Assembly: GCF_041320605.1 (NCBI RefSeq)
Contig: NZ_CP166679.1
Location: 3,644,001 to 3,708,000 of the forward strand
Reading direction: 5' to 3'
Source of the DNA: Arenibacter antarcticus
GTDB lineage: Bacteria; Bacteroidota; Bacteroidia; Flavobacteriales; Flavobacteriaceae
Length of the DNA: 64,000 bases
The notes below the pieces were generated by a model, which was given only the letters and a program-made list of their open reading frames with translations, was not told where the DNA came from and did not search any database. Both the position numbers and the translations under genes were made by a program. How positions within the stretch are numbered: the stretch's first letter is position 1; every line of letters begins with the position of its first letter. Below, piece by piece: positions 34,647-37,130 of this stretch.

Positions 34647-34886
34647 CAATATGCGGAATTTATTCGCTAGTGTTATATTGAGTCTCCTATCAGGTACCTA
34701 CCAAAGCTCTTTATGGTGCATTTGGGGTATAGTTTTACCCAAGTAGCCATTAGATTACACTATAAACACGATTACTTCCCAAAAAATCTCTTGGGACAAT
34801 TAATTTTTTTTATATTTGGTTTCAATTAAACCCTAAATAGCCTATACGTAACAAAATTACTTTTTTAAAAATCTGATGTGCTTTTC

Positions 34887-34906
34887 CGCTTTTTAATACA
34901 AAAGCG
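34887..34906. promoter_or_regulatory. Short perfect inverted repeat upstream of first sigma gene
   Basis: CGCTTTT (34887-34893) and AAAAGCG (34900-34906) pair perfectly around a 6-base centre, 35 bases before the sigma-factor start. It could be an operator or an RNA hairpin. No equivalent was found upstream of the second sigma gene. The rest of the 34622-34940 gap shows nothing else apart from the uvrA promoter element. Confidence 0.4.
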
Positions 34907-34940
34907 AACATAATTGTTAAGCTAAAAAAAAGTAATTGGT

Positions 34941-35522
34941 ATGGAACTATTAATTGAGGATTCGGTATTGGTAAAAAAATATATGAACGGGAACGAAAGG
35001 GCCCTCGAAATATTGGTAAACCGACACAATCAGCGCCTAAGCAGCTTTATTTACTCCAAAGTTCAAGATCGAGAAATCACTGAGGATATTTTTCAGGATA
35101 CCTTTATAAAAGTAATTAAAACCTTAAAAAAGGGAAATTATAATGAAGAAGGTAAATTTCTGCCTTGGGTAATGAGAATATCCCACAACCTTATTATAGA
35201 TTACTACAGAAAGAGCCAAAGAATGCCCAAATTTGAAGGGAATAGCGATTTTAATCTTTTCTCTATTATCAGTGATGATAAACTAAATGCTGAACGGCAA
35301 CTTATCAAGGATCAGATCGACTTTGATCTTAAGGTTATAATAAAGGAATTGCCGATAGAGCAGATGGAGGTGTTGGAAATGCGTATATATAAGGACATGA
35401 GTTTTAAGGAAATTTCAGAAAATACTGGGGTAAGTATTAATACGGCATTGGGGAGAATGCGTTATGCCCTGATCAATCTCCGAAAGCTTATTGAAAAGTA
35501 CAATATAGTTTTAACGAATTAA
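34941..35522 (+). CDS. ECF-type RNA polymerase sigma-70 factor, first paralogue
   Basis: A 193-residue ECF sigma factor. Region 2 spans about residues 22-95 with DIFQDTFIKVIKTL (2.2) and FLPWVMRISHNLIIDYYR (2.3-2.4). Region 4 at about 135-185 has LPIEQMEVLEMRIYKDMSFKEISENTGVS, the recognition helix-turn-helix, then NTALGRMRYAL. It directs RNA polymerase to a specific promoter set. It is about three-quarters identical by eye, without gaps, to the gene at 36332, even keeping the same last residues NIVLTN. No FecR-type anti-sigma gene adjoins it; instead a 47-codon ORF lies 70 bases downstream. The target regulon is unknown. Confidence 0.92.
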   Translation: MELLIEDSVLVKKYMNGNERALEILVNRHNQRLSSFIYSKVQDREITEDIFQDTFIKVIKTLKKGNYNEEGKFLPWVMRISHNLIIDYYRKSQRMPKFEGNSDFNLFSIISDDKLNAERQLIKDQIDFDLKVIIKELPIEQMEVLEMRIYKDMSFKEISENTGVSINTALGRMRYALINLRKLIEKYNIVLTN

Positions 35523-35592
35523 TGGGACGTAAGACGGATTAATAAACTACTGCAGCGGTTATTGTGTTTCTTTATTGATAAACCAATAACCC

Positions 35593-35736
35593 ATGGATGA
35601 ATTTTACGTTAATGCGAAAGACAAATGTGCCTTAGTTTCTACCTCTTCCAGCAAAATAAAATATCTTTTAAATTACTCCAAATCGCTTTGCATTATTGAT
35701 TGCGATGGCAAAAGTCAGGAGCATAACCTTAATTGA
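35593..35736 (+). CDS. 47-codon small protein paired with ECF sigma factor (copy 1)
   Basis: An ATG-initiated frame of exactly 47 codons, MDEFYVNAKDKCALVS... to ...HNLN, 70 bases after the first sigma gene. The copy after the second sigma gene has the same length and aligns without gaps. Identical positions include Y5, K11-C12, L14, T17-S18, K23, L25, Y28-S29-K30-S31-L32, I34-I35 and the C-terminal L-N, about 18 of 47. Conservation of length, position and a YSKSL-x-II core across an old duplication supports a real gene. It has no membrane helix or signal, so it is probably cytoplasmic. A role as a modulator of the sigma factor is an inference from linkage. Confidence 0.7.
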   Translation: MDEFYVNAKDKCALVSTSSSKIKYLLNYSKSLCIIDCDGKSQEHNLN

Positions 35737-36331
35737 AACCTAGTTTCCTGTCCAATAATTTCTTGATTGTTGGATAAATTGGGGACCTTTGTGGGCTAAA
35801 AGGTGCTACAAGCTGCTTCTTAAATTTGCAAAAGTAGATTCATTTATAAATTTAAATCATTATCAGGGATAAGCATTTTCTTTCATTCCTCTTTTCTACC
35901 ATTATTTCTAATAGTAGACCAGCAGTATTCTATTTCTATTATTTGTAATTGAGAAACTATTTTTCGACTACAATGAATGTCCCTTAACCTTATAAGAGGA
36001 TGTGTTTTCATATATTTTGGCTGATTTTCAATTGATTACTTACTTTTTTAAATGCGAACATCCTATAAGGAAAGTAATATGACTTTCATTTACGGCTCCA
36101 TAACTACAGATTACACTAATTATTATGATGAAAATGACAAAATCGACGTTTGACATCATTTAATGCGGGTTTTACAACATACTTTTTACTCCGCTTCATC
36201 ATTTATATACATTTATCCTGTTGCTGGTTTACAATGACGTTTTAAGGTTACCCACTTTAAGATAGGCAAAAAAGCAATAAAAGTCCAAATCGAAAGGGGA
36301 GACTCTAGATTAACCAAAAACAATAATTTGT
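35737..36331. other. Intergenic region between the two sigma cassettes
   Basis: Nearly 600 AT-rich bases without a convincing ORF, hairpin terminator or mobile-element end. It must contain the promoter of the second cassette, but no clean TAnnTTTG with a -33 TTG was picked out. Short frames are present without recognisable content. Confidence 0.5.
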
Positions 36332-36913
36332 ATGGAATTGCAAACAGATGACTCGGTATTAGTAAAAGATTACATTAACGGCAATGAAAAGGCACTTGAG
36401 ATTTTGATCAATAGGCACAACCAGCGTATTAGTAGCTTTGTCTATTCCAAGGTTCTTGACAGAGATGTTACAGAAGATATATTCCAGGATACCTTTATTA
36501 AAGTAATCAAGACCTTAAAAAAAGGCTCCTATAGTGAAGAAGGAAAATTTTTGCCATGGGTAATGAGGATCGCACACAATTTGGTGATCGATCACTTTAG
36601 AAGGAATAAAAGAATGCCCATGTTTGAAGGGAGCGAAGATTTTAATATTTTTTCGGTCATCAGTGATGATCAATTAAATGTAGAAAAAAAACTAATAAAA
36701 GATCAGATCGATACTGACCTCTCAAATTTGATCGAAGAATTACCCGATGATCAAAAAGAAGTACTATTAATGCGTATTTACAGGGATATGAGTTTTAAGG
36801 AGATATCTGAAAACACTGGAGTCAGTATTAATACCGCTTTGGGAAGAATGCGTTATGCGCTTATTAACCTTAGAAAAATAATAGCGAAAAACAATATAGT
36901 TTTAACGAATTAA
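36332..36913 (+). CDS. ECF-type RNA polymerase sigma-70 factor, second paralogue
   Basis: A 193-residue paralogue of the sigma factor at 34941, with region 2 (DIFQDTFIKVIKTLKKGSYSEEG, FLPWVMRIAHNLVIDHFRR) and region 4 (LPDDQKEVLLMRIYRDMSFKEI, SENTGVSINTALGRMRYAL). The DNA-contacting region 4.2 helix is unchanged between the two, suggesting they read the same or very similar -35-type elements. Region 2.4 differs at a few positions (IDYYRKSQR versus IDHFRRNKR), so -10-type preference or partner binding may have diverged. It is followed 73 bases later by a 47-codon ORF, like its sister gene. No anti-sigma gene is adjacent. Confidence 0.92.
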   Translation: MELQTDDSVLVKDYINGNEKALEILINRHNQRISSFVYSKVLDRDVTEDIFQDTFIKVIKTLKKGSYSEEGKFLPWVMRIAHNLVIDHFRRNKRMPMFEGSEDFNIFSVISDDQLNVEKKLIKDQIDTDLSNLIEELPDDQKEVLLMRIYRDMSFKEISENTGVSINTALGRMRYALINLRKIIAKNNIVLTN

Positions 36914-36986
36914 TGGATACTTTAAAATAATAGAGCAATATTTCCAATTAAGTGACGTTATCTAAACATAACAATACTATAATCTT

Positions 36987-37130
36987 ATGGAAAAAATTTA
37001 CTCTGAGAATCAAAACAAGTGCAAACTTGCTATAACCAGCCAGGAAACAGTAAAGTTTTTGATGAGCTATTCCAAATCATTGCAGATTATTGAATATAAT
37101 AATATTCAGTTTGAAAATATTCTAAACTAG
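36987..37130 (+). CDS. 47-codon small protein paired with ECF sigma factor (copy 2)
   Basis: A frame of exactly 47 codons, MEKIYSENQNKCKLAITS... to ...ENILN, 73 bases after the second sigma gene and aligning without gaps to the copy at 35593. The shared KC-x-L, TS and YSKSL-x-II positions and the final L-N argue for purifying selection. It is predicted soluble and helical, with a basic middle. It lies just before a palindromic terminator (37140-37159), so sigma gene, small ORF and terminator form a compact unit. Confidence 0.72.
   Translation: MEKIYSENQNKCKLAITSQETVKFLMSYSKSLQIIEYNNIQFENILN

Follow-up and report, generated by a model that had tools for sequence, protein, structure and literature searches.

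A 47-residue protein encoded behind an ECF sigma factor of Arenibacter antarcticus and other Bacteroidia is best read as a reduced anti-sigma factor

Among the described partners of extracytoplasmic function (ECF) sigma factors, those with a class I anti-sigma domain (ASDI), such as RseA, ChrR, RsiW and RskA, come closest to the proteins treated here. In the accessible part of the class I survey (PMC7406223), helix 4 of this domain is the region-2 binding element in the contact analysis and lies on sigma region 2.1/2.2, the core polymerase site, in four complexes; the survey removed domains shorter than 50 amino acids (aa), found an ASDI in the neighbourhood of just 6% of the ECF sigma factors of Bacteroidetes and noted group ECF03 as being without a class I anti-sigma domain. 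Since domains below 50 aa were removed, proteins of 47 residues would fall outside that survey. Two such proteins are encoded in the window, that is, the whole stretch of 64,000 nucleotides (nt) of Arenibacter antarcticus (Flavobacteriaceae) that was analysed (assembly GCF_041320605.1, contig NZ_CP166679.1, positions 3,644,001 to 3,708,000 of the forward strand), each behind an ECF sigma factor gene. The small protein is probably the anti-sigma partner of this group of ECF sigma factors, with a single sigma-binding helix left, and would be made from its own promoter in a negative feedback, a reading drawn from comparative sequence analysis.

The two cassettes consist of the following features, given in window positions.

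34941-35522, forward strand: sigma A, ECF sigma factor of 193 aa (Pfam Sigma70_r2, E 3.4e-14; r4_2, E 3.8e-8)
35593-35736, forward strand: small A, 47 aa, putative reduced anti-sigma factor (profile match, E 5.3e-15; dN/dS 0.17-0.22)
36332-36913, forward strand: sigma B, ECF sigma factor of 193 aa, 78% identical to sigma A (Pfam)
36936-36959, forward strand: promoter-like element CAATA-N15-CGTT before small B (motif in 18/18 B copies of the genus)
36987-37130, forward strand: small B, 47 aa, putative reduced anti-sigma factor (profile match, E 1.3e-19; dN/dS 0.125)
35731-35733 and 37125-37127, forward strand: last codon, Asn, of small A and of small B

A previous, sequence-only reading of this DNA had placed two 193-aa sigma genes 70-73 nt 5' of 47-codon frames, with coordinates that proved exact, the gap being 70 nt between sigma A and small A and 73 nt between sigma B and small B. 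Its estimates by eye, about three quarters identity for the sigmas and about 18/47 for the small frames, were close to the values of 78% and 40% (about 19/47) obtained by alignment. Both sigmas were above the Pfam cut-off for the region 2 and region 4 domains, and Foldseek with the sigma part of an AlphaFold model matched AlgU, sigma-E and SigW, among others. In the genome of A. antarcticus itself a sigma-factor model matches 26 times at E≤1e-10, but the small-protein profile just twice at E≤0.01, once in each of the two cassettes. No Pfam match, FecR domains included, was obtained for small A or small B at E≤10, and NCBIfam returned a chance-level match for small B only (E 0.021; bit score 14.4, with the cut-off at 339).

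The 47-codon frames are real protein genes under purifying selection. The ratio of nonsynonymous to synonymous substitution rates (dN/dS) had a pairwise median of 0.125 for small B (86 pairs) and, for small A, of 0.17 among the 47-aa rows (12 pairs) and 0.22 among the 50-aa rows (16 pairs), with 0.036 for sigma A and 0.012 for sigma B. In the wrong-frame control, which covers small B and the 47-aa rows of small A, the ratio was 1.01 and 1.11 for small B and 0.86 and 1.58 for small A. The sequence-only reading had held that lacking conservation or a dN/dS near 1 would turn the small open reading frames into chance frames; values of 0.13-0.22 in the real frame, against 0.86-1.58 in the wrong ones, speak otherwise. 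Chance open reading frames could account for the small size and for the absence of a family-library match above cut-off, and yet there is next to no likelihood left for them, since dN/dS is well below 1 in the real frame only and the linkage to the sigma gene is conserved, so that the frame controls refute this explanation. Across the 18 B copies, identity was 80% in the gap that precedes the small gene, 85% within the reading frame and 61% downstream of it.

The linkage of the small gene to the sigma gene extends far beyond the window. At E≤1e-40 the sigma factor was found in 53 of 60 genomes, that of A. antarcticus included, and a small protein, checked by profile, lay behind 67 of the 74 sigma copies in those 53 genomes (34/36 in the genus, 19/21 in the rest of the family and 14/17 in the rest of the order). 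A separate count of 24/29 for the order beyond the family was set aside, as it contains loci fetched for their match and two genomes of the same family. In a set of 80 loci, which are the best 80 of 588 confirmed matches, lean to near relatives and overlap the 60-genome set in some of the same genomes, all 90 sigma copies were followed by a small protein ending in Asn (N), with small genes identified by reading frames in loci L184 and L189; 89 of the 90 proteins measured 45-50 aa and 51 exactly 47 aa. A class sample contained the sigma factor at E≤1e-45 in 176 of 198 genomes. Outside the order, 89 class loci were assembled, 24 from the class scan, 60 picked mostly one per family and five fetched as matches to the small-protein profile; a family member stood behind the sigma gene in 59 of them (54/84 without the five fetched by profile), and 38 of these 59 partners end in N. 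With the small-protein profile alone, matches were recovered in 98/148 genomes of the order and 28/198 of the phylum, seven of the latter 28 lying outside the order (E 3.9e-5 to 0.009), five of which sit behind the sigma gene. The duplication seen in the window is a side matter to the pairing of sigma and small protein: two sigma copies are present in 18/18 genomes of the genus, and outside the genus 32/35 matching genomes have one. Behind sigma A in loci L048 and L050 stands another sequence, which is partly similar between both genomes.

Small frames also occur apart from the sigma gene, as in 5 of the 20 loci fetched by profile (L107, L109, L117, L118 and L119), where no sigma gene was detectable in 3.2-3.6 kb; their profile E-values range from 3.4e-7 to 0.0013, so that some may be chance. 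Three genomes with such an unlinked frame (G055, G184 and G219) carry the sigma gene elsewhere without a small gene behind it. That the small protein is retained even apart from the sigma gene argues against its acting purely in cis. An explanation by a cis-acting leader or regulatory RNA, in which the reading frame would be incidental, could appeal to the conserved gap before the small gene (the 80% of the 18 B copies) with the CAATA-N15-CGTT motif that it holds, and it is nevertheless very improbable in view of codon-level selection in the real frame only, of these five loci and of an Rfam scan in which all matches were below gathering scores.

The nature of the small protein is suggested by a series of sizes in the slot behind the sigma gene. 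Sorted by length, 154 of the 231 detected partners have up to 54 aa, 49 have 55-71, 26 have 72-100 and 2 are longer, some lengths being approximate as starts were chosen by rule; the last residue is Asn in 154/154, 46/49, 10/26 and 0/2 of these classes respectively. In other Bacteroidia the same slot is occupied by an anti-sigma-like domain of 72-90 residues, and 11 proteins of 72-81 aa represent such full-domain slot-mates. Five full-domain partners of 76-78 aa (L106, L111, L275, L277 and L280) begin 62-83 nt within the sigma gene, and the partner genes of L244, L276 and L282 begin 17-26 nt within it. The long forms resemble a soluble anti-sigma domain in their N-terminal part, and in the 173-174-aa partners of L244 and L282 a hydrophobic stretch, recognised by eye, follows the domain. 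Seven bridging proteins (L068, L072, L073, L114, L115, L116 and L123) combine the whole domain with the LN tail. The mid forms have core and tail in common, with the consensus P-S-x-x-x-I-x-N-I-L-N-Y-S-K-A-L ... V-L-N, in which invariance of the last residue is by choice as the rows were taken from N-ended proteins. By alignment, helices 1-3, which precede helix 4, are present in the slot-mates of 72-90 aa and absent from the 47-mers. The small protein probably does not stand apart from anti-sigma factors, as the sequence-only reading had it, since its slot-mates are full anti-sigma-like domains and intermediates connect both.

Library searches with the full domains pointed in the same direction at low scores. 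The NCBIfam model 'anti-sigma factor' was the best match of two of them (E 7.5e-6 and 4.4e-4, below the curated cut-offs), and when 18 full-domain rows were compared with NCBIfam the two most-matched families, hit by 4 and 3 rows at E≤0.1 and again below cut-offs, were both of the anti-sigma kind; a further six families, of which one is anti-sigma, were each hit by a single row. Sequence searches of the PDB with a single long form and with the full-domain profile gave nothing below E 0.1.

Profile comparison by hhalign yielded 98.3% between the 47-mers and the mid forms, 98.1% between the mid forms and the domain and 90.7% between the 47-mers and the domain. When the domain profile was restricted to 13 untailed domains, the values were 87.1% (score 31.6) for the mid forms and 52.6% (score 23.3) for the 47-mers, and both real scores were higher than the best of 100 column shuffles each (14.0 and 13.4 respectively). 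In small B the residues that correspond to the helix-4 region of the full domain by alignment are 13-33, and the protein has a C-terminal LN tail. On a quick maximum-likelihood tree of 155 sigma rows, with support below 80 on 60 of 152 inner branches, the length classes of the partners cluster and the N tail needs two changes among rows with a partner. Locus L157, whose record bears the title Cytophaga sp. FL35, clusters with the Flavobacteriaceae in this tree, and its name is probably outdated.

It may be asked whether an unrelated regulator replaced a lost anti-sigma gene in the slot, the likeness to helix 4 being a convergence of short helices. The 52.6% over 21 columns of the 47-mers against the untailed domains would suit such a replacement, as would the borderline PDB sequence match of the order-wide small profile to biofilm regulatory protein A (E 0.0025), which by its name is no anti-sigma factor. 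We consider it quite unlikely nonetheless, given the seven proteins in which a single chain carries both the complete domain and the LN tail, the clustering of length classes on the sigma tree and real profile scores that exceed all 100 column shuffles.

The terminal Asn is a striking feature. In an order-wide alignment of 38 rows that were not selected by their last residue, only M1 and the terminal Asn are invariant; this alignment omits most rows of the own genus as well as the loci in which no member is recognisable, namely those of sigma A in L048 and L050 and the loci L075, L076, L079, L082 and L083. Since the codon for the terminal Asn differs between small A and small B, the residue is kept at the protein level.

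Structure prediction and coevolution were used to look at the proposed contact with the sigma factor. AlphaFold models of read-through fusions show the small part as one helix and a hairpin. Mean-field couplings were computed over 226 sigma-small pairs (effective number of sequences, Neff, 118), and the strongest couplings between sigma and small protein were 19-29, 60-28, 89-24, 12-41, 30-17 and 43-6, with 26-25 ranking 11th and 63-29 12th; 20 of the top 30 fall in region 2, to which 95 of the 193 sigma columns belong. The peak z-score was 7.3 for the real pairing and 2.7-4.8 for full shuffles. The score of the published helix-4 contact pattern was reached by none of 15 clade-preserving shuffles.

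The gap between the two genes holds a promoter-like element in most loci. CAATA and CGTT separated by 13 to 18 nt were found in 145 of 223 sigma-small gaps (spacer of exactly 15 in 127), a count in which related genomes are treated separately, against 1.1 gaps expected from dinucleotide shuffles and none in stretches of equal length behind the small gene. The element occurs in loci of the family, the order and the class, lies 23-38 nt from the start codon in 136 of the 145 cases and was not found in the 200 nt before the sigma gene (0/164); in the window only copy B has CAATA-N15-CGTT in the gap. ECF -10 boxes resemble the CGTT box, and this box together with the distance of 23-38 nt to the start codon suits an ECF promoter with a short leader. 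In Flavobacterium psychrophilum, the accessible part of one study assigns a CGT box to an ECF sigma factor (PMC9723704). This sigma factor may recognise the CAATA-N15-CGTT element, and if it does so it would drive its own inhibitor. A link to the type IX secretion system (T9SS) or to the SM6 regulon, whose F. psychrophilum motif as given in the accessible part of that study has a CGT box (PMC9723704), was considered and rejected: the own genome has 6 motif sites against 13 for the reversed control, and the open reading frames around three motif sites show no common theme.

Several results weigh against a reduced anti-sigma factor with its own feedback promoter. Neither AlphaFold fusion model yielded a usable docking: in the first the small part had a predicted local distance difference test (pLDDT) of 34-49, and in the second its helix reached a pLDDT of about 79-85 at a predicted template modelling score (pTM) of 0.54, with no interface score. 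The 15 clade-preserving shuffles had a coupling peak z of 6.0-7.4, like the real 7.3; at the true sigma register the helix-4 contact pattern ranked 61 of 5075 placements and 29 to 161 in other settings, the small-protein offset not always being the same, with better placements at other sigma shifts, and when only N-tailed rows were used the offset predicted by the domain came 1128th. The strict match of the 47-mers to the domain is modest (the 52.6% over 21 columns), most full-domain rows have no NCBIfam anti-sigma match at E≤0.1 and some weakly match unrelated models, and Pfam was silent on the five long forms searched. A copies of the genus lack the CAATA-CGTT element (0/16, with CGTTAT alone in 12/16), and no regulon shows in the own genome, where the motif occurs at 6 places and its reversed control at 13. 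Lastly, no partner was detected after the sigma gene in 30 of the 89 class loci from outside the order, and two genomes of the own genus, G008 (L050) and G012 (L048), retain sigma A although no small gene follows it.

Taken together, the size series, the profile similarity and the conserved linkage suggest that the small protein is best read as an anti-sigma factor cut down to helix 4 and an Asn-ended tail. The ancestral partner would have been a class-I-like anti-sigma domain of about 75-90 residues, as is still present in other Bacteroidia, where in two genomes a stretch resembling a membrane helix comes after a domain of this type. On the way to the Flavobacteriaceae the N-terminal helices may then have been lost, helix 4 kept and a short Asn-ended tail gained. 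The helix of the 47-mer should sit on sigma region 2, because it would be homologous to helix 4, and in this position it would bind and inhibit the sigma factor by competing with RNA polymerase. At most loci the small gene's own ECF-like promoter would cause the active sigma factor to make its own inhibitor, a negative feedback; promoter use by this sigma factor, a role for the tail and the way in which a signal would release the sigma factor all belong to this proposed part of the mechanism.

A different outcome of the same descent would be a change of role, whereby a protein derived from the anti-sigma domain stabilises the sigma factor or aids its engagement with RNA polymerase as a co-factor. 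The 47-mers do lack the domain's N-terminal helices, the terminal Asn stays constant in an otherwise mostly variable protein, which might reflect a newly acquired function, and sigma A persists in two genomes without a partner behind it. We regard such a co-factor as unlikely, because in the accessible contact analysis 12 of the 14 top contacts join helix 4 to region 2, so that the retained part would be the inhibitory one (PMC7406223), and because an own promoter-like element fits feedback inhibition. The sequence-only reading had proposed a dedicated regulator or co-factor of the sigma factor; what stands of this is a real, selected, co-duplicated and sigma-linked gene whose product presumably regulates the sigma factor, while the notion of an unrelated co-factor gives way to that of a reduced anti-sigma factor.

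The reduced anti-sigma factor can be extended to a bolder proposal, which is possible and on balance doubtful. The small proteins might constitute a hidden, class-wide family of Bacteroidia, minimal anti-sigma peptides that lost three of four helices and gained a Leu-Asn tail, most of them with their own sigma-dependent promoter located in the gap between sigma and peptide genes; the tail could serve as a conditional signal for degradation or for binding, and a soluble peptide without a sensor domain would in this way be switched off by destruction or capture and not by membrane proteolysis. If true, this would be a one-helix, signal-degradable anti-sigma loop, which to our knowledge is unlike the known classes. 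As regards the reduced anti-sigma factor itself, the data suggest that a widely conserved ECF sigma factor of Bacteroidia (the 176/198 class genomes) has a partner in many carriers, one that is often too short or diverged for family libraries. The slot would offer a natural series that begins with a long protein containing a stretch like a membrane helix and passes through a soluble domain to a one-helix peptide, by which one can ask how little anti-sigma factor suffices.

Other features of the window surround the cassettes. An inverted repeat, ATTACTTTTTT ... AAAAAAGTAAT, spans 34855-34937 immediately 5' of the sigma A start codon, with the following arms.

34855-34866, forward strand: left arm before sigma A, pairing with 34926-34937 in a predicted fold
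34926-34937, forward strand: right arm, separated from the sigma A start codon by 3 bases

TTACTT...AAGTAA was found within 110 nt of the sigma start in 79/164 copies, against 1/164 with one mononucleotide shuffle each; for the inverted repeat of the window the fold z-score was only -1.41. The upstream neighbour on the opposite strand is presumably uvrA, and the downstream neighbours we take to be genes for endonuclease III and a peroxiredoxin.

The cassette can be compared with several described systems. As for ASDI proteins, the small gene adjoins an ECF sigma gene, and the profile comparison, made with the full-domain slot-mates, places the 47-mer on their helix-4 part. Unlike them, it is without the helices before helix 4, which is why it is not called a class I anti-sigma factor, shows no membrane stretch and has its own promoter-like element and a conserved C-terminal Asn. 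The class II protein CnrY of Cupriavidus metallidurans, which has a membrane anchor, is alike in size and binding helix only. According to the accessible part of the class I survey, the last CnrY helix binds region 2 as ASDI helix 4 does, and CnrY binds with two helices (PMC7406223), whereas the 47-mer has one predicted helix. SigP-PorX of Porphyromonas gingivalis can be likened to it by its description, in what is accessible of the source, as a Bacteroidia ECF sigma factor with a non-classical partner (PMC4800418). EcfO-Reo of Bacteroides/Phocaeicola likewise pairs an ECF sigma factor with an anti-sigma gene in Bacteroidota, but Reo spans five compartments in the accessible account (PMC13114119) and the small protein has 47 residues, so that size and topology rule it out as the described homolog. 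A literature search, conducted without most subscription journals, found no paper on such a small sigma-linked protein.

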